DNA of 64,000 nucleotides from Paenibacillus pabuli (lineage in GTDB: Bacteria > Bacillota > Bacilli > Paenibacillales > Paenibacillaceae). Both the position numbers and the translations under genes were made by a program. Shown here piece after piece: positions 6,711-57,392 of this stretch. The stretch covers positions 1,798,001-1,862,000 of the forward strand of contig NZ_JBDOIO010000003.1 of NCBI RefSeq assembly GCF_039831995.1. Direction: 5' to 3'. Position 1 is the stretch's first letter; the number at the start of each line of letters is the position of its first letter. A model generated the notes under the pieces. That model made no database searches. It saw nothing but the letters and a program-made list of their open reading frames with translations, and had not been told where the DNA came from.

Positions 6711-7751
6711 TTATGATTTGGCAGACAATGTTTTCAGATAAGCCAAAGCATCGTCAACCGTACTCACTGGAACCAACTTCATTTTGGTCCCAATCTGTTC
6801 CGCTTTGGCTTCGGCTTCCTGATAATTCTGTTTCGGAACGAAGAAAATCTCCGCCTCTTTTCGATCCGCAGCTACGATTTTATGCACCACACCACCAATT
6901 GCACCGACTACGCCTTCCTTGGTGATGGTGCCCGTGCCCGCAATTCGGTGACCTTGAGTAAGGTCTCCCGGAGTAAGCTGATTATAAATTTCCAGTGTAA
7001 ACATCAACCCGGCCGAAGGACCACCCACCTGAGTATCCGTGAAAGTAATTTGTTTATTCGAATCCTCGGGCTTCACTTTCTGAACGGTCCCGATCATTAC
7101 ACCCAAGCCTGGCCGGGTTTCACCCGTTTTGCTGTCTTTTACTTCAATCAGCTTCACATCACGGCTAATCGTCTCGCCTCCGCGTTCCAATTGCATTTCT
7201 ACCGTATCTCCCACTTGTTTATCCTTCAACTGGGCAGATAATACCGTGTTATCCGGTGTAGCTGTTCCGTCCACGCCCAGGATAATATCGCCAGGAGCAA
7301 TATCTCCCTGTGGCTTCGGATCCTCTGACAAACCAAACACGAAGATATGCTCAGGAACGATGGAATACTTTACCCCCGCCTGCTCATAAGCCGCTTCCAT
7401 GGCGGAAGATTGGGAATCACTCATGAACCATACCTGTTCGGCGGAGTACTCTGCTTCCGTTTTGCCTTGCAGGCGATCTTCCTTTTTGTCAATTTGCATA
7501 TTTCGGTTAAACAGGGACGTACCTAGCAAAAACACATTGGCATATGTTGCCGACACCGTCGTCATCATGAATACACCGCGTTCTTCCTGGTCCCCATCCT
7601 TTACCGTAACCATCGGTTTTACTTCATCCGCGCTGCCAGGCATATAGATAATATATGGCGTTGGCATATACACTGCAACATAAACAACCAGAGCTACCAC
7701 GATCACAAAGATCGAAGCTCTGAAGCCGCCAGATTTTCGAATCCGATTCAT
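6711..7751 (-). CDS. PDZ-domain serine protease, YlbL/SepM family
   Basis: This is a membrane-anchored extracellular protease of the YlbL family, related to the pheromone-processing protease SepM. The 346-residue protein has an N-terminal membrane segment (about residues 10-30), a PDZ domain (DIAPGDIILGVDGTATPDN) and a C-terminal Lon-type protease domain. The catalytic serine is in GGPSAGLMF and the lysine in GGVVHKIVAADRK, forming the Ser-Lys dyad. ATG at 7751 is preferred; upstream in-frame starts would put a soluble leader before the membrane segment and overlap a TATAAT element. It lies in the conserved ylb block. Substrate not known. Confidence 0.88.
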   Translation of the reverse strand: MNRIRKSGGFRASIFVIVVALVVYVAVYMPTPYIIYMPGSADEVKPMVTVKDGDQEERGVFMMTTVSATYANVFLLGTSLFNRNMQIDKKEDRLQGKTEAEYSAEQVWFMSDSQSSAMEAAYEQAGVKYSIVPEHIFVFGLSEDPKPQGDIAPGDIILGVDGTATPDNTVLSAQLKDKQVGDTVEMQLERGGETISRDVKLIEVKDSKTGETRPGLGVMIGTVQKVKPEDSNKQITFTDTQVGGPSAGLMFTLEIYNQLTPGDLTQGHRIAGTGTITKEGVVGAIGGVVHKIVAADRKEAEIFFVPKQNYQEAEAKAEQIGTKMKLVPVSTVDDALAYLKTLSAKS

Positions 7752-7956
7752 CGCATGAGCCCCCGTTCTTTGCGTTTCTTCCATAATTATAAGTCTAACA
7801 TCCTCATTCTCACGCATACAATGGTACAGGCCGGATAGGCCGCAGGTTTCTGTCGCTTGTCCGGTCAAGGCCGAACCGTCCCCTGGACGTCATTCGGCCG
7901 TCCAATCCGATTACTGCAGCCGAATGAATCGGCGCTATTTCATATGAGGTGAAACG

Positions 7957-9207
7957 ATGACAATGCAGACCGAGGTTACAGGATCCAACCCAATAAGGTC
8001 GGTACTACTTAGTACCGGCGCTTTGTTACTGGTCGTCGCTGTAGTGGTATCTCCGAAAGATGCCTTCGATGCCTCCATTCAAGGATTGGACATCTGGTGG
8101 AAAATTATTTTTCCGGCCATGCTTCCATTTTTGATGCTGTCGCAAATGCTCACTGCATTTGGGTTTACGGACGCTCTCGGCGTCTTGCTGGGACCACTGA
8201 TGCAGCGTTGGTTTCGCCTTCCCGGCGAAGCTGGACTAGCCCTTGCCGTCGGCATGTGCGGAGGATTTCCTGCAGGAGCGGACACGGCGTCGCGTTTGGT
8301 TCGGGATCAACAAATAACCGGCAAACAGGCCATTATTCTGGTCGCAGCAGCTCATTTCGCCAATCCGATGATGATCATTTTGGTCATAGGTGCCGCTTTT
8401 CTTCACCAGCCTGGTGCCGGATACTTTCTGCTTATGATTCATTGGCTCAGCGGCTGGATAGCCGCCATCGTTGCCATTCGGTTTAATCCCGGTCGGCAAA
8501 AACAGGAGAACAGCTCCAGCCCCCCCAAGCTCAACCCGGATCATGGGCTTTGGTTTCAAATGATGAGCGCCGCCCGTGAAGCCCAAGCACGAGACGGTCG
8601 TGGATTCGGCAAACTGCTGGGTGACACCGTGTCTCATGCAGTACAAACGCTGATGATGACCGGTGGTTACATGATCGGTTTTGCCGTATTTATACGACTT
8701 CTGGGTCTTTATCTCACGCCCGGCAGTTCGGTTGCCCTCTGGCCTTCTGTGTTGGAGCTGCATTTGGGCACATACCAATTAAGTCAAACGCCTTGGGCAC
8801 CCGTGCTTACGATTTCCCTGATTGCTGCTGTTCTTGGTTGGGGAGGATTGTGCTCCCATTTACAAGTCTCCGCTGTGATGAAATCCGCCGGAATGGCAGC
8901 CAAGAGCATGATCTATTTTGCTGCGGTACGTTTAATTCATGCGTTGATTGCCTTCACCCTAAGTGTCTTCCTCTGGATCCCCTTCAGCCGCTACAGCACA
9001 GAGGCATGGGCTCCGTTCTGGTCTTCAGCGCGCCCGGATGAGACCACTCTGCTACCAATGCAATCTCAGCTTGAAGGCAACAACGCTGCGGCGGAAATTT
9101 TATGGAGCAGCTTCCCCTCAGTCTGTATCGGACTTGCGATTATTCTTGCCGTTATGATCAGCCTGTCCGGCTTGACCCACTGGGTTAACCGCCGTTTTTC
9201 TCGCTGA
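7957..9207 (+). CDS. ylbJ: sporulation integral membrane protein YlbJ
   Basis: YlbJ is a polytopic membrane protein needed for normal spore formation in Bacillus and belongs to the nucleoside-recognition (Gate) superfamily. The 416-residue protein has about eight hydrophobic segments and the family motif [17 protein letters not shown] near residues 98-115. GAGGTG precedes the ATG. Its 3' end overlaps the convergent coaD gene by 23 bases. Its presence supports a spore-forming host. Its molecular substrate is unknown. Confidence 0.9.
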
Positions 9208-9700
9208 TTTTCCGGCGAAGTGCCGTTTCCACTTCCGGGGACACCAGATCGGTTACATCTCCATGGTAATGAGCAATTTCCTTGACGATACTGGAGCTTA
9301 AATACGAATATTTCGGATTGGTCATCATAAAGATGGTTTCCGCATCCGGGTTCAGCTTGCTGTTGGTGGAAGCAAGCTGCAGCTCGTATTCAAAATCAGT
9401 CACGGAGCGTATGCCACGTACGATAACCTGAGCTTCCTTTTGCCGAACATAATTGGCTGTCAGATCACGGAAGCTATCCACTTCCACATTAGACAGATGG
9501 CCTGTAACTTCTGTAATGAGCGCTTTACGCTCTTCCACCGTGAACAGTGGATTTTTGCTCATATTATTCAGTACAGCCACGATGACGCGGTCAAATTGCT
9601 TGGACGCCCTGGCGATAATGTCCAGATGGCCCATCGTTACAGGATCAAAACTCCCGGGATATACGGCAATCCGTTCCTGCCTGTGTATCATTTCAGTCAT
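9185..9700 (-). CDS. coaD: phosphopantetheine adenylyltransferase
   Basis: CoaD transfers AMP from ATP to 4'-phosphopantetheine in coenzyme A synthesis. The 171-residue protein has the nucleotidyltransferase motif [17 protein letters not shown], the [13 protein letters not shown] segment and the C-terminal [12 protein letters not shown], the family's ISSTxxR/K equivalent. It overlaps the end of rsmD by eight bases, with AGAGGAGG upstream, so rsmD and coaD form a coupled pair as in Bacillus (ylbH-coaD). Confidence 0.97.
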
Positions 9701-10441: not shown

Positions 10442-10580
10442 ACATTTCGGCCATTCTATAATTATCGACATCACAAGTGTCGTAGACAACCGCGGAGAAG
10501 ACTTACGTTTCCCCATAAGCTCTTCGTCCGGTTTCTCCTCTCCCATGAAAAATAGGCCCTCGAAAGAGGGCCTGTTTTTA
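10442..10580 (+). ncRNA. candidate small regulatory RNA
   Basis: A transcript of about 135 bases would start near 10442 from the promoter upstream and end in the T run of a GAAA-tetraloop hairpin. Inside it are a CGACA/TGTCG hairpin (about 10466-10482) and a longer stem in which GAAGA-CTTA pairs with TAAG-CTCTTC. C-rich single-stranded stretches (TTTCCCC in the loop and CTCCTCTCCCAT before the terminator) are complementary to Shine-Dalgarno sequences. There is no open frame with a ribosome binding site. The C-rich design recalls the RsaE/RoxS RNAs of Firmicutes, but no homology is claimed. Confidence 0.6.
10554..10580 (+). terminator. hairpin terminator with GAAA loop, active on both strands
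   Basis: AGGCCCTC pairs perfectly with GAGGGCCT around GAAA. The plus strand continues TGTTTTTA and the minus strand ATTTTTC, so it can end both the candidate small RNA and the minus-strand gene pair that ends at 10629. Confidence 0.9.
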
Positions 10581-10628
10581 TTTGCTTTCAAATATGTATA
10601 GAAACATTAGTAAGACTGTATGCCTTCT

Positions 10629-46845: not shown

Positions 46846-46892
46846 GAAAAAACAGGCTTGCTGCCCTAACCTATTTCGTTAAGACAGCAAAC
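46846..46892 (-). terminator. terminator after the hybrid kinase gene
   Basis: TTGCTG pairs with CAGCAA and TAAC with GTTA with small mismatches; the minus strand ends TGTTTTTT. It lies just after the stop at 46896. Confidence 0.75.
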
Positions 46893-46895
46893 CAT

Positions 46896-48602
46896 TTAAA
46901 TGATCACTTTTTCCAAAGCTTCACAGGCTTCCTGATATGCTGGCATCAATGCATCGAGCAATGGCTCAGCCTTCCTCACCTGGCCTGTTTTGGCAAGCTC
47001 TTCAATTCTGGCAAAAAGCGTTGAACAATATTCTATTCCGAGACTCAAACTGCCGGATTTCAGATCATGGGCACATTCTGCAGCTGCAATATGATCCCCA
47101 GAGACAACGTGCCTCCGAAGCACTTCAATTTTACCAGGTGTTTCGTTACGGTACATGTCCAGCAGCATTTCAAGTATCGTCTGTTCGTCATCACTGTTCA
47201 GTTCGCCAATCTCTTTTACGATGCTCATATTCAGCACTTCTCGAGGTTCCGAGGGATGCTGCCATTTCTGTATTACATTTTTTAAGGATTCCAACGTAAA
47301 CGGCTTGCCAATGAAATCATTCATGCCTGCTTCAAGGCATTTTTCTTTCTCTCCATCCAGGACATTGCCAGTCATCGCAATAATCGGAATGGCATGACGC
47401 ATTTCGTCCTGCTCCATGGCCCTTATTTTACGTGTCGCTTCAAGCCCATCCATAACTGGCATCATGTTATCCATCAGAATGATTCCGTATCTTTTGCTTA
47501 GAAAGGCAGCAACAGCCTCTTCTCCGTTGGAAACAGAATCAACCTCGGTTAACCCCAGTTTCTTAAGCTGCATCAGAACAACTTGACGATTAATCAGATT
47601 ATCATCTGCCAACAGGATTGGCCGCGAATAAGGTTCCTGGAGTAGAGACCCCAAGTCATGCGAGGGGCCTTCTGTCAGCGGAACTGTGGATGTAACAGGT
47701 TCGGACTTGCGGCCCAATGGGATTTCAAACCAGAACGTCGAGCCTTGTCCCTCTTGGCTATTGACTCCAATTTGTCCGCCCATTAACATGACGAGAGATT
47801 GGCATATGGACAACCCCAATCCTGTTCCCTCATACTCCTTGGAGCGTCCTTTTTCCGTCTGAACGTAAGGTTGGAATAAGGTTTTCTGATCTTCTTCGGC
47901 GATACCGATTCCCGTATCCTCTACCTCAAATCGGATCCATTGGGAGGCCTCATCTTCCTTAACAAGGACAACTCGGACGCTTATTGACCCGTCTTTAGTA
48001 AATTTGTTGGCATTTTGAATCAGGTTCATTAAAACCTGCGTAATTCGTGTGGAGTCACCTTCAAGAACCGCGAAGATTCGCGAATCACAATCCACAGACA
48101 GCTGGTTCCCATTTTGGATCACCTTGGGCTCCAGCAAACGAACAATATATTTAAGCGTAGGCTCGAGTTCTACATCTCCCATTTCAAGACGCATCTGACC
48201 TGCTTCCAGTTTGGAAAAGTCCAGTAGGTCCTGAATCAGCTTCAGCAGAAGTCTCGCTGCCTCTTGAATCACTTGAACCGAATTTTGCTGTTCTTCGGAC
48301 AAGGAAGAATGTTGCAGCAGTTCCGCCATGCCCAATATTCCATTCAAGGGTGTACGAAAATCATGACTGATCACGGCTATAAACGAACTCTTGGATTCAC
48401 CTGCGGATACCGCTTCTTTTCGAGCAGCCTCCAGACTTGCGTTATTTTTAGCAAGCAGACGCTGAAGTGTCACCAGTTCATTGTTCATTTCGGAGAATTC
48501 GCCAAGAATTCGCTCTTCCTGTTCCTTGCTGCGAATAATCTGATCAGATAAATGCTCAATCGTTTTGCGCAGCTTTTCGATCTCTCCAGTTTCATTAGAC
48601 AT
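46896..48602 (-). CDS. soluble hybrid histidine kinase with receiver and Hpt domains
   Basis: The 568-residue protein has no membrane helix. A coiled coil (about residues 5-65) leads into the phospho-acceptor His80 (AVISHDFRTPLNG). The ATPase follows with N-box NLIQNANKF, DTGIGI and GTGLGLSI. A receiver domain (330-445) has Asp378 in IILMDNMMPVMDG, and a C-terminal Hpt domain has His512 in CAHDLKSGSL. It can therefore carry a whole His-Asp-His relay but has no sensor domain of its own. It lies 14 bases after the cobalamin-binding protein gene, which probably supplies the signal. No dedicated response regulator gene is adjacent. Confidence 0.93.
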   Translation of the reverse strand: MSNETGEIEKLRKTIEHLSDQIIRSKEQEERILGEFSEMNNELVTLQRLLAKNNASLEAARKEAVSAGESKSSFIAVISHDFRTPLNGILGMAELLQHSSLSEEQQNSVQVIQEAARLLLKLIQDLLDFSKLEAGQMRLEMGDVELEPTLKYIVRLLEPKVIQNGNQLSVDCDSRIFAVLEGDSTRITQVLMNLIQNANKFTKDGSISVRVVLVKEDEASQWIRFEVEDTGIGIAEEDQKTLFQPYVQTEKGRSKEYEGTGLGLSICQSLVMLMGGQIGVNSQEGQGSTFWFEIPLGRKSEPVTSTVPLTEGPSHDLGSLLQEPYSRPILLADDNLINRQVVLMQLKKLGLTEVDSVSNGEEAVAAFLSKRYGIILMDNMMPVMDGLEATRKIRAMEQDEMRHAIPIIAMTGNVLDGEKEKCLEAGMNDFIGKPFTLESLKNVIQKWQHPSEPREVLNMSIVKEIGELNSDDEQTILEMLLDMYRNETPGKIEVLRRHVVSGDHIAAAECAHDLKSGSLSLGIEYCSTLFARIEELAKTGQVRKAEPLLDALMPAYQEACEALEKVII

Positions 48603-48616
48603 TGCGTCATTCCTCT

Positions 48617-49705
48617 CTATTCGCGAATCATACCAACGTTGCAGTTGGCAGATTGCTGAGCCAGCAGACTTTCTGCAACGGCAATAGCCTCATCAGCTCC
48701 GGGAGCATAACCATCTGCCCCAACGGTCCTCCACAAGTCCGGATCAATGTTGAATGGATAACCTCCTACCATGATTTTCACATGCGAGGTTGGCGGGTGA
48801 TTACGAATCATTTGGATAAGTTCTTTGGCAAGATGAAGATGAAATGTCATGGTCACTGAAATAGCGACCACATCTCCCTGATGGCGCTCGATCGCCTCAA
48901 GCAGGCTGCCATTGGGGACATTTGCCCCCAAATAATACGTATCCCAACCTTCCATCTCAAACACGTCAGCAAGCATACGCAAACCGATCTCATGCTGTTC
49001 ACTGCCTACACATGCTGCCACCAGCTTTTTCTGCTGCGGCTCATGAATTAACCAGCGGGGATAGAGCCGTGAGATGATGGCCTGTGTGGCAGCCGTACAG
49101 AAGTGCTCCTGTGCGACACTAATCTGGCTAAGCTGCCACAAACGGCCAATCTCGTACTGGGTAGGTTGAAATATATAACGGTAAATATCACGAATGCTTG
49201 CTCCGCCTTCCAGCTCGGCTTCAATGATGCTGAATGCTTCTTGGCGTCTGCTATCCAGAAGAGCCTGCAAATAAGACTTCGCAGCTTGGCCGTATGGAAA
49301 AGATTCATTAACGAATCCTTGCGTTACCTCCAGATGCTGAGTTTGATAGATTCCCATTTCCAAATAATCTAGAACAAGTGACTTGGATGCATCGTCAAAT
49401 TCTTCTTCCAACGTCTCTTTGATTAAATTCAAATTAATGGCCAGATCGTCCGCCGAAACGTTGTAACCTGCCAATAGCGTTTTTAGCCAGGATATATAAT
49501 GAGTAAAAAGATTAGGACTCTTAACCAGAACACTCTCTGCCAGGTAATTCAAACTATATTGCGAATCCTGTTGGGTACGCATTCTGCCATTTTCACCAAA
49601 ACGTTCAATCAAATCCGGCTGCAGCATATACTGCTTTTCCGTTATTTTATCAGCTAGCCCACCTGCTGCTTTCAGCAAGTGTTCCCCTGCTTCCTGATGG
49701 GTCAT
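48617..49705 (-). CDS. cobalamin-binding sensor protein, CarH/LitR-like without DNA-binding domain
   Basis: The 362-residue protein has three parts. The N-terminus (about 45-120) is a helical region of unknown type. The middle (about 140-215) matches the B12 light-sensing helical bundle: Trp190 is followed after nine residues by Glu200-His201 (WQLSQISVAQEH), the W-x9-EH signature of CarH and LitR photoreceptors. The C-terminal Rossmann domain starts AACVGSEQHEIGLRMLADVF with His238 as the probable lower cobalt ligand; it lies 37 residues after His201, against 35 in CarH as I recall it. No MerR helix-turn-helix is present. ATG at 49705 is chosen with GGAGGG upstream. It is first in an operon with the hybrid kinase. 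Confidence 0.88.
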   Translation of the reverse strand: MTHQEAGEHLLKAAGGLADKITEKQYMLQPDLIERFGENGRMRTQQDSQYSLNYLAESVLVKSPNLFTHYISWLKTLLAGYNVSADDLAINLNLIKETLEEEFDDASKSLVLDYLEMGIYQTQHLEVTQGFVNESFPYGQAAKSYLQALLDSRRQEAFSIIEAELEGGASIRDIYRYIFQPTQYEIGRLWQLSQISVAQEHFCTAATQAIISRLYPRWLIHEPQQKKLVAACVGSEQHEIGLRMLADVFEMEGWDTYYLGANVPNGSLLEAIERHQGDVVAISVTMTFHLHLAKELIQMIRNHPPTSHVKIMVGGYPFNIDPDLWRTVGADGYAPGADEAIAVAESLLAQQSANCNVGMIRE

Positions 49706-53678: not shown

Positions 53679-56600
53679 GTGATCGATCATCACTCTTCAT
53701 CTTCCCAGACAGTGGAATCTGAGTTGCCAGTTCTCCAGATTCCACTGGATTTTGGGCGCCGTCAACAATCATTTTCGTATGAATCAGCTCATATACAGCT
53801 GCAGCCAATACAGAGCCGTGAACTCACGCAGAAATATGGCTCTACGTCTATTTATAACGCGCTTTTGTCCGCATATGCTGCCTTGTTGTTCCGGTTATCA
53901 GGAGAACAGGAATTAGGCGTTGGCACCCTTGATCCGGATCGGTCTGCATCTGTTCTGCTGCTGCAGGTACATGGCAAGATGAGCTTCCGTGAGCTAATTC
54001 GTCAAATTACCCTTTTGCAAGAAAAAGGAGATTCTGTGTCGCCGGGCGCGTACCCGGAAACCTTGTTTATGTTTAACAGTGTTCAGCTTCCTCAGGCTCC
54101 GCAGGTGCTCAATTGGAATATCCGTGAAGAGCAGAATGTATTCACTCTGGATTTGTTCTTTGATGCATCCCTCCTGAAAGAAGCTACAGTGATGAGATAT
54201 GCAGAGTACTACCAAACCCTGCTTTTCTCCATGCTTCGTGATGAAGACATGCCCATTGGCTCCGTGGATATTTTATCGGCCTCTGATCGGACGCTGTACC
54301 GCGAGATGAATGATACCTGTGTGACTGAACCTGAGCATCAGACCATCCATGGGTGGTTCGAAGCTACGGCAGCCGAGTATCCTGATTCACCTGCGATCAC
54401 TTCCCCATTTGGCAGGTATAGCTACAGAGAATTGAACGAACGTGCCAACCAAGTCGCACGTGTACTGCTATCGAACGGATTACAAAAGGGTGAATTTGTC
54501 AGCATCTTCATGGAACGTAGTCTGGAAACGATTATTTCCTTGCTCGGCATTCTGAAAGCAGGCGGTGTTTATGTTCCGGTCGATCCCGAGCATCCGCAGG
54601 AACGAAACAGTTATATCGTGGAGGATACCGCTTCTTCTTTTGTCCTAACCAAGGAGTCCTCTTTCACTGAAGCTTCACGGTTATTCTCTGGCATTCCAAC
54701 CGTACGGCAGATTCTGGCTGTAGACGGACGCCTCGCTGGTTTTGCAGCAAGTAATCCTAATCTTGATATTCAGCCGGACGATCTCGCTTACATCATCTAC
54801 ACCTCCGGATCCACAGGCAAACCCAAAGGAGCACTCGTGGCCCATCGCGGGGTTGTCAACCTTGGAAGTGTTGTGCAGCGCGATTGTGACATTCAGGCCG
54901 GCGACGTATTGACTCAGTTTGCTACATACAGCTTCGATGCTTCCGTGTGGGATACGATCGGTGCACTGTTCTATGGAGCCGAATTGTATCTGTTATCTGC
55001 CGAGGAACGTGTGTCTGTAGAGGAGTTCGCCACAGCAATCGAGCGCACGGGCACAACGATCATTACGATCCTGCCTACGATCTTCTTTAATCAGCTTGCA
55101 TCCTATCTGTCAGACGAAGGGTTCCACAAGCTGGCCAAAGTTAGAATTATCACCGTTGCAGGCGAAGCCCTCTACGGAGAACAGGTTCGCGCCTTCCAGC
55201 GCAAATTTGGTAACCAGATTGATATCGTCAATGTGTACGGGCCGACCGAATGTACCGTGGCGACAACGACATACCGGATCAGTGAACAAGTCCCCGATCA
55301 TGTCGTTAATATTCCAATTGGTAAACCGATTCATAACTACAAAGTGTATATCGTTAATGAAGAGCAGCAGCTATGTCCTGTAGGCGTGCCTGGTGAAGTA
55401 TATATTGCCACTCCAGCGCTGGCGAAAGGGTACTTGAATCAACCCGAACGTACAGAGCAAGCCTTTATTGATAACCCTTTTGCGATCGATGAGAAAATCT
55501 ACAAATCCGGTGATATTGCCAAGCTGCTTGATACCGGTTTGCTGGAATACGTCGGACGTAGTGATTCGCAGCTGAAGATCCGCGGTCATCGGATTGAAAT
55601 CGGTGAGATCGAAGATCATTTTGCCCGCCTTGAAGGAGTTCAGGATGTCGCGGTCATTCCCAAGAAAGAATCCGACGGTCAGAACATGCTTGTGGGATAT
55701 TTCACTTCCAAAGATGGCACTACGCTGTCCGTTGACGATATCAAAGCCCAATTGGCAGACAAGCTCCCATCCTATTTTGTACCGAAATGGATCTGTCAGC
55801 TTGATGAAATGCCCATTGCACCAACCGGCAAAATCCACCGGAAAGCTATGGTATCTCTACCAAACGAAGAGAGACATGAAAATCGCCCGGATCGTGTGAT
55901 GCCTGAGACAGAGACCGAGGCTATCATATTCAATGCCTGGAAAGAGATTCTCGGCCACAGCGACTTTGGAATCGAAGACAGCTTCTTCACGATCGGTGGC
56001 GACTCCTTGCGAGTAATCCATGTCCTGGTTATTCTGAAGCCGCACTATCCACAGCTGAAGATTGCTGACTTCTTTGCAGAGAAAACCATTCGCTCCCTAG
56101 CACTTCGGGTACAGTCCCTTGCGCAGATTACCGAGCAGACTGCACCATCCGCTGAGCAAACCGGCGTGATCACCCAACTGGCTGAGCATCCGGTCGAATT
56201 GGCATCTCAACTGGGGTACCCCGAGATTCGCAAGCCGGAACATGTCCTGCTAACAGGTGCTACAGGTTATCTTGGCTCACATGTGCTGCAGCAGCTCCTT
56301 ATTCATTCGGATGCGACAATTCATACACTTGTTCGTCGTCCATCTGACGGCAATACAGCCATGCAGCGTTTGAGCAAGGTTATGGACGGTTACTTCGGTC
56401 CTGAGATCAGTGCGCTTCTTGGTTCACGAGTGGAGATTATCGAGGGAGATCTGGAGCAGCCTAACCTGGGTTTAACTGCAGAGCAGACCAGCAATGTGCA
56501 AGCCCGGATTGACCGTGTAATCCACTGTGCGGCAGACGTACGACACTTTGGGGATGCTGAACAGTTTGCCAAAACCAATGTAGAAGGTACGGTTGCCCTG

Positions 56601-57392
56601 CTAAATCTGATTCGCAGCAAACCAGGTGCTTCCTTCCATCATGTCTCCACCATGGGTATACCGGAAGATCTTGCACTCAGTGGACAATGGGAATCATCCC
56701 TTCAGTATGATCGTTTCCCGGCAGATCTGCATGTAGAGAATCTGTACTCTGACAGTAAACTTGAAGCAGAGAAAGTGCTGATGATCGCGGCAGAGGAAGG
56801 TGTGCCTGTAAGTATCTACCGTGCAGGTAACCTGACATGTCATTCGGAAACGGGACGCTTCCAGTCCAACATCGACAGCAATGCCTTCTACCGCATGATC
56901 AAGGCGATGCTCCTTCTCGGCAAGGCCCCTGCTGCCGATTGGATGGTCGATTTTACACCCATTGATTATGCAAGCCAGGCCATCGTTCATTTGGCTCTGC
57001 GTGATGACACGGCTGGACGGGTATTCCACATTTGTAATCCGGAGTCGATCAGTTACGATTCCTTGATTGCTTCCGTCAATCGTGCCGGATATGCAGTCGA
57101 AACGCTGCCTTTTGACGAATATACCAGCTGGTTATTCGACTCATCCATTAGCAAGGATCCGGAGGCCCTGCAGCTCGCCATTGCCCAATTGGAAGGTGAC
57201 GGTGCGAAGGATTCTGCATATGTATATGCATGCCCGGTAACAACAGCGTATGTGGAGCCAGCCGGAATTCACTGTGCAAAAGCAGATGATCAATTCATCT
57301 CCAGCATGTTGCAATATGCAGTTAACATTGGATATTTCCCTGCTGCTAATCAGCCGCAGCTTGAATCTTCCACATCGCATATTGTGGAGTAA
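53679..57392 (+). CDS. NRPS-like enzyme: half condensation lobe, adenylation, carrier, thioester reductase
   Basis: The 1237-residue protein activates an amino or carboxylic acid, loads it on its carrier arm and probably releases it as an aldehyde or alcohol. Residues about 1-190 resemble only the C-terminal lobe of a condensation domain; the HHxxxDG lobe is absent. The adenylation domain (about 220-700) has YTSGSTGKPKG from residue 374, NVYGPTECT, GDIAKLLDTGLLEYVGR and PTGKIHRKA. The carrier domain has Ser776 in GGDSL. The reductase (about 855-1230) has TGATGYLG at 859-866 and the catalytic YSDSK at 1023-1027. GTG at 53679 has AAGGAGGA upstream. By hand alignment to GrsA the specificity residues read about D-A-W-T-T-A-V-V-A, a code I cannot assign. 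Confidence 0.92.
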   Translation: MIDHHSSSSQTVESELPVLQIPLDFGRRQQSFSYESAHIQLQPIQSRELTQKYGSTSIYNALLSAYAALLFRLSGEQELGVGTLDPDRSASVLLLQVHGKMSFRELIRQITLLQEKGDSVSPGAYPETLFMFNSVQLPQAPQVLNWNIREEQNVFTLDLFFDASLLKEATVMRYAEYYQTLLFSMLRDEDMPIGSVDILSASDRTLYREMNDTCVTEPEHQTIHGWFEATAAEYPDSPAITSPFGRYSYRELNERANQVARVLLSNGLQKGEFVSIFMERSLETIISLLGILKAGGVYVPVDPEHPQERNSYIVEDTASSFVLTKESSFTEASRLFSGIPTVRQILAVDGRLAGFAASNPNLDIQPDDLAYIIYTSGSTGKPKGALVAHRGVVNLGSVVQRDCDIQAGDVLTQFATYSFDASVWDTIGALFYGAELYLLSAEERVSVEEFATAIERTGTTIITILPTIFFNQLASYLSDEGFHKLAKVRIITVAGEALYGEQVRAFQRKFGNQIDIVNVYGPTECTVATTTYRISEQVPDHVVNIPIGKPIHNYKVYIVNEEQQLCPVGVPGEVYIATPALAKGYLNQPERTEQAFIDNPFAIDEKIYKSGDIAKLLDTGLLEYVGRSDSQLKIRGHRIEIGEIEDHFARLEGVQDVAVIPKKESDGQNMLVGYFTSKDGTTLSVDDIKAQLADKLPSYFVPKWICQLDEMPIAPTGKIHRKAMVSLPNEERHENRPDRVMPETETEAIIFNAWKEILGHSDFGIEDSFFTIGGDSLRVIHVLVILKPHYPQLKIADFFAEKTIRSLALRVQSLAQITEQTAPSAEQTGVITQLAEHPVELASQLGYPEIRKPEHVLLTGATGYLGSHVLQQLLIHSDATIHTLVRRPSDGNTAMQRLSKVMDGYFGPEISALLGSRVEIIEGDLEQPNLGLTAEQTSNVQARIDRVIHCAADVRHFGDAEQFAKTNVEGTVALLNLIRSKPGASFHHVSTMGIPEDLALSGQWESSLQYDRFPADLHVENLYSDSKLEAEKVLMIAAEEGVPVSIYRAGNLTCHSETGRFQSNIDSNAFYRMIKAMLLLGKAPAADWMVDFTPIDYASQAIVHLALRDDTAGRVFHICNPESISYDSLIASVNRAGYAVETLPFDEYTSWLFDSSISKDPEALQLAIAQLEGDGAKDSAYVYACPVTTAYVEPAGIHCAKADDQFISSMLQYAVNIGYFPAANQPQLESSTSHIVE

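Follow-up and report, generated by a model that had tools for sequence, protein, structure and literature searches.

A globin joined to a B12 domain reportedly serves as a light-sensing unit in signalling proteins, the photoglobin that Schneider et al. are said to have described in 2022, reportedly together with its gene neighbourhoods. The closest described systems are the photocobilins SasPcob (8J2W, 8J2X) and AbDPcob (8J2Y), in which a cobalamin-binding domain (CBD) with a Trp, a Glu-His (EH) pair and an axial His is combined with a bilin globin (Zhang et al. 2024, PMC10979010). According to that paper, light releases the adenosyl group of adenosylcobalamin (AdoCbl) in photocobilins and CarH and alters the quaternary structure, biliverdin, with Asp270 and Trp296 of SasPcob named as its contacts, extends the effect to red light, and isolated photocobilin domains have light-dependent effects on a separate cyclase domain. 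It further reports that AbDPcob output shifts in the dark upon AdoCbl binding alone, that predicted photocobilins carry the B12 domain at either end, and that less is clear about the role of standalone photocobilins, which may act through contact with another protein. Here, we analyzed a stretch of 64,000 nucleotides of Paenibacillus pabuli (the window), which contains a photocobilin-type sensor gene followed by a hybrid histidine kinase gene. With a probability of roughly 0.72, we interpret this pair as a two-protein light-sensing phosphorelay, in which a standalone photocobilin with an N-terminal globin switches its partner kinase in trans via a coil. The features concerned are as follows.

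48617..49705, minus strand: B12/photocobilin-type sensor gene, ATG start, 362 aa
49331..49705, minus strand: globin (photoglobin) domain, sensor residues 1-125, including D47 and W73
48683..49279, minus strand: B12-binding_2 and B12-binding domains, sensor residues 143-341, including W190, E200, H201 and H238
46896..48602, minus strand: hybrid kinase gene, 568 aa, soluble, with coil, HisKA, HATPase_c, REC and Hpt
48411..48584 (G000:C3:1846411-1846584), minus strand: partner-specific coil at the kinase N-terminus (residues 7-64), with the motif EFSxMNNELVTLQRxLAKxN
46855..46893, minus strand: terminator-like hairpin directly 3' of the kinase gene (16-pair stem, T-rich tail), placed by consensus match alone in a scanned stretch with 7 terminator-like sites against 3.3 expected

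The sensor gene, with AGGAGG located 9 bases 5' of its ATG by sequence inspection, encodes a four-helix bundle and a Rossmann B12 domain (Pfam B12-binding_2, 143-214; B12-binding, 227-341) that carry the W-x9-EH and E/DxH motifs. W190, E200, H201 and H238 were unchanged across 49 aligned homologues (49 of the 120 listed among 3016), at the places that an earlier, sequence-only reading had given them in the 362-residue protein. That reading had proposed a CarH-like B12 sensor; the light-type B12 domain and its location on a separate protein beside the kinase stand, and residues 1-125 had been overlooked. This segment is identified as a phycobiliprotein-like bilin globin by its fold and by its homology to the globin that known photocobilins carry at the C-terminus; it escapes Pfam in the 362-aa sensor, Phycobilisome (PF00502) being called in 15/49 relatives. 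In sequence alignments, D47 and W73 align with Asp270 and Trp296 of SasPcob, respectively (SasPcob chain numbering is the paper's minus 6; anchored on W61). D47, W73, G187, W190, E200, H201, H238 and G260 were invariant in all 48 full-length Paenibacillaceae sensors, and the bilin-site Cys is missing at residue 44, because this position holds T (39/48) or S (9/48). Since the globin carries conserved bilin residues, the name photocobilin-type fits better, and a plain CarH without MerR was set aside owing to the globin domain.

The kinase gene lies beyond a 14-base gap (48603-48616), as the sequence-only reading had it, and Pfam confirmed the kinase, receiver and Hpt domains named there (HisKA, 71-135; HATPase_c, 182-297; REC, 329-444; Hpt, 480-564). 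The phosphorelay residues H80, D378 and H512 were invariant in 30 homologues. The kinase had also been described as lacking a sensor domain; none was found in it above the Pfam cut-off, but its N-terminus is not bare, since a 58-residue coil with the conserved motif occupies it. AlphaFold2 modeled kinase residues 4-97 as a single helix running through the coil and DHp, including H80, with a predicted local distance difference test score of 82-88 over coil residues 11-60.

Among 197 Paenibacillaceae genomes, 57 matched the sensor at 1e-20 and 48 were counted as full length, the nine set aside being decayed or partial (G070, G107, G148, G165) or holding the B12 or globin part alone (G033, G160, G166, G188, G196). 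In 48/48 genomes with a full-length sensor, the next gene downstream, on the same strand, was that of the kinase. Sensors of the Paenibacillus illinoisensis type strain (L006) and Paenibacillus sp. ACRRY (L005) share 96% and 98% identity with ours, respectively. At 27 named-genome loci, the kinase came next in 25 (L005-L029, with the L021 sensor truncated); at L030, the sensor was decayed and the kinase gone, and at L031 (Azospirillum), a less similar kinase followed the sensor. Sensor and kinase decayed jointly in L030 and L112. A coil model searched at 1e-5 found one site per genome in 53/197 genomes, namely the 48 with a full sensor, G070 and G148 (kinase intact, sensor partly decayed), G183 (intact kinase beside sensor relics), G194 (kinase frame broken, sensor absent) and G021, so that the coil adjoined the sensor gene or its remains in 51/53. 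The coil began 10-75 bases past the sensor stop in 39/48 cases, leaving no space for a further sensor domain, and an extra stretch of ~110 aa preceded it in the other 9/48 kinases, which appeared PAS-like by eye and was blank in Pfam for L022. These sequence patterns suggest that the coil probably marks the partner kinase of the sensor.

Both chromophores could be supplied by the host genome (G000), which encodes one PduO-type cobalamin adenosyltransferase and one heme oxygenase (Pfam 77 bits against a cut-off of 23; G000:C3:1372119-1372688, L032), the latter without an NCBIfam match at 0.01. A phytochrome as the user of bilin in this genome was rejected, given the lack of any PHY (PF00360) match. 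Heme oxygenase (PF01126) was present in 38/48 sensor genomes vs 13/149 others, and among PHY-less genomes in 5/15 with the sensor vs 5/135 without it, both as raw genome counts that ignore kinship. Biliverdin is thus a likely ligand of the sensor. In many relatives, the heme oxygenase gene lies ~2 kb from a phytochrome gene; our genome retains the heme oxygenase and gave no PHY match.

The protein resembles SasPcob in being a standalone sensor, and SasPcob is its top sequence match in the PDB. Unlike in SasPcob and AbDPcob, however, the Paenibacillus globin is N-terminal rather than C-terminal, and its constant neighbour is a hybrid histidine kinase; the word "kinase" does not occur in the main text of PMC10979010, nor "histidine kinase" in that of Yu et al. 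2024 (PMC11796333). In the latter, which mentions BBD-CBD fusions, the SignatureFinder set of light-responsive CBDs has a signature whose GxxW, EH and GxxxP elements are exact in our sensor, with SxxH replacing GxxH; across the 48 sensors, GxxH has its G in 15/48 and GxxxP its P in 39/48. CarH and LitR (5C8A-5C8F, 3WHP) have a MerR domain, whereas the Paenibacillus sensor has a globin added and, as the sequence-only reading had noted, no MerR domain (no Pfam match); it scored 41.3 bits with the CarH model (cut-off, 400). The genome also encodes, at another locus (L004 1384-2349), a CarH-type MerR-CBD protein that has the W, the EH and the axial His. In contrast to BBAG-2, described as separate globins with an RGMC motif in PMC10151467, the Paenibacillus globin shares its chain with the CBD, and T or S replaces the Cys of CXQD. 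The sensors of Azospirillum (L132 6953-8014) and Skermanella (L133 6956-8008) have Cys in place of T44 (CxxD), and covalent bilin attachment could be possible in these two. Photocobilins and photoglobins are already in print. The searched literature reported no photocobilin–kinase pair or coil, a statement that leaves the 2022 photoglobin paper outside its scope and claims no absence from print. What sets the present case apart within the literature searched is the combination of a photocobilin with an N-terminal globin, a separate hybrid kinase next to it throughout the family, and a partner-specific coil.

The sequence-only reading had called for a survey of the pair, and the conservation seen in all 48 family members does not extend unchanged beyond them: elsewhere, the partner is often a cyclase, and two Skermanella plasmids have none. 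In 13 regions from 12 genomes of other Bacillota, a cyclase-type gene adjoined the sensor-like gene in 6/13, with GGDEF called by Pfam in L135, L138, L140 and L145, and L139 and L141 assigned by size, place and coil; in L140, L141 and L145, the globin was weak or undetected and D47 was lost. In L136 (G283), a group II intron open reading frame (RVT_1 and GIIM; 7507-8934) splits the photocobilin gene in two, with a REC-Hpt protein upstream and a coil-bearing PAS-HisKA-HATPase-REC kinase downstream. At a threshold of 0.1, the coil model matched 8 places across 11 other genomes, 7 in a gene adjoining the sensor-like gene and 1 elsewhere, and 4/11 genomes had none; the Azospirillum match (G491) was assigned to the gene beside the L031 sensor by inference from matching contig coordinates. 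In other Bacillota and Azospirillum, the cyclases or kinases encoded next to the sensor begin with a similar coil. Kinases follow the sensor in Azospirillum L132 and L134, the latter being A. brasilense Sp7 (7001-9296), a possible model strain, where an unannotated sensor-type gene is followed by a coil-kinase (54% over 26 coil residues; E 2e-4) with the receiver absent from the stretch read. Plasmid records were examined for four of ten with at least 80% coverage (H1, H6, H9, H10). Photocobilin-type genes on Streptomyces plasmids (L194, L195, L197; CBD, then globin) sit after PP2C/SpoIIE-type phosphatase genes, with a STAS-domain gene next in two of the three loci. The idea that the coil marks every photocobilin was ruled out by the coil-less PP2C neighbours and the partnerless Skermanella sensors. 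L114 (5872-10846) and L118 (5806-10364) hold B12-domain genes divergent from very large CheB-CheR-PAS-kinase genes (1166 and 1234 aa), with a 123-aa globin gene between the two in L114. In L143 (6845-8226) and L120 (5672-6351), the gene of a stand-alone bilin-type globin (122 and 123 aa) comes directly after that of a heme-degrading monooxygenase resembling ABM/HmuQ; in L143, a B12-domain gene is next, giving a split photocobilin that may have a bilin supply of its own. We consider it an even bet that N-terminal-globin photocobilins form a trans-acting modular platform in Bacillota and Alphaproteobacteria, in which one standalone two-chromophore sensor would serve outputs that can replace one another (a simple kinase, a hybrid kinase with Hpt or a diguanylate cyclase) and a short shared partner coil would provide docking and signal transmission.

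Several observations weigh against a photocobilin that controls its kinase through the coil. No kinase or cyclase-type partner follows the sensor in the two Skermanella plasmids examined, the coil is absent from all three PP2C neighbours in Streptomyces, and G021 has an intact coil-kinase with no sensor nearby. The kinase model as a whole is weak (predicted template modeling score, 0.39), and the sensor reads SxxH where the published signature has GxxH. In ten of the 48 sensor genomes, both PF01126 and PHY are lacking although the sensor retains D47 and W73, and a heme oxygenase without PHY or a full sensor occurs in five genomes (G033, G043, G070, G107, G183); heme oxygenase presence is therefore no proof of its use by the sensor. 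The partnerless Skermanella sensors and the orphan kinase of G021 would also suit a photocobilin for which the kinase is a mere neighbour and the true target lies elsewhere. We regard this as unlikely, in view of the 48/48 pairing, the specificity of the coil inside and outside the family, the joint decay in L030 and L112, and the 39/48 kinases with no room for another sensor domain before the coil.

A slightly less unlikely alternative is that the sensor gauges the level of AdoCbl instead of light, with AdoCbl occupancy alone setting its shape and the kinase, as the dark response of AbDPcob (PMC10979010) and the ten sensor genomes missing PF01126 would allow. However, the Trp and EH of the light-type adenosyl pocket and the bilin residues D47 and W73 are all invariant, a B12 gauge would have no obvious need of a bilin globin, and the window yielded no cobalamin riboswitch at the gathering score, the single match being the ylbH leader. 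The intact adenosyl pocket of the light type likewise makes it improbable that cobalamin and bilin are used to sense redox state, oxygen or heme breakdown with light not being the signal, despite the globins that adjoin heme-degrading monooxygenase genes in L143 and L120. Least credible, to the point of being negligible, is a corrinoid methyl-transfer protein with no sensor role. The corresponding models stayed below cut-off (TIGR02370, 52.9 vs 215.3 bits; MtgC_2, 64.3 vs 370), and in a tree of 14 of the 49 aligned homologues and 31 other proteins, 12 methyltransferase corrinoid proteins formed a clade separate from the sensors (support, 100/100), with EH in 0/11 of those having letters at that site (L182 is gapped at the W and EH columns). 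This identity is disfavoured by the separate clade and the missing EH, together with SasPcob as the top PDB match, although NCBIfam scores the methyl-transfer models above CarH. The sequence-only reading had named, as outcomes that would speak against it, homologues mostly without the kinase and clustering with methyltransferase corrinoid proteins; the 48/48 pairing and the separate clade mean that neither occurs within the family.

Under the preferred two-protein phosphorelay, H238 would ligate AdoCbl, W190 and E200-H201 would form the adenosyl pocket, and biliverdin would be bound close to D47 and W73 of the N-terminal globin. Red and green sensitivity is expected because the sensor has both a bilin globin and a B12 domain; the Co-C bond would be broken by green light acting on B12 or by red light via the bilin. 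Cleavage might alter the dimer or shape of the sensor, which may then contact and act on the N-terminal coil of the kinase, a predicted continuous helix with the H80-bearing helix. Phosphate could then pass from H80 to D378 and H512 and on to a putative unlinked response regulator; no output response regulator adjoins the sensor–kinase pair, as judged at the locus only, a genome-wide search not having been made.

Elsewhere in the window, the ylbH leader RNA (RF00516) lies at 10490-10583 on the minus strand (69.1 bits). A 1237-aa protein resembling nonribosomal peptide synthetases, with partial condensation, adenylation, carrier and terminal thioester-reductase domains, is encoded at 53679-57392 and adjoins a chemoreceptor gene.

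If our interpretation is right, this locus would represent a red/green two-component system in which the sensor and the kinase reside on separate proteins, and the shared coil, if truly common to different outputs, would be a natural plug for light control. For standalone photocobilins, the pair offers a conserved partner from nature, a coil that may serve for docking, and a measurable output, namely kinase phosphorylation in darkness and under green or red light. What such proteins do can thereby be tested directly, in a soil bacterium that is not phototrophic.
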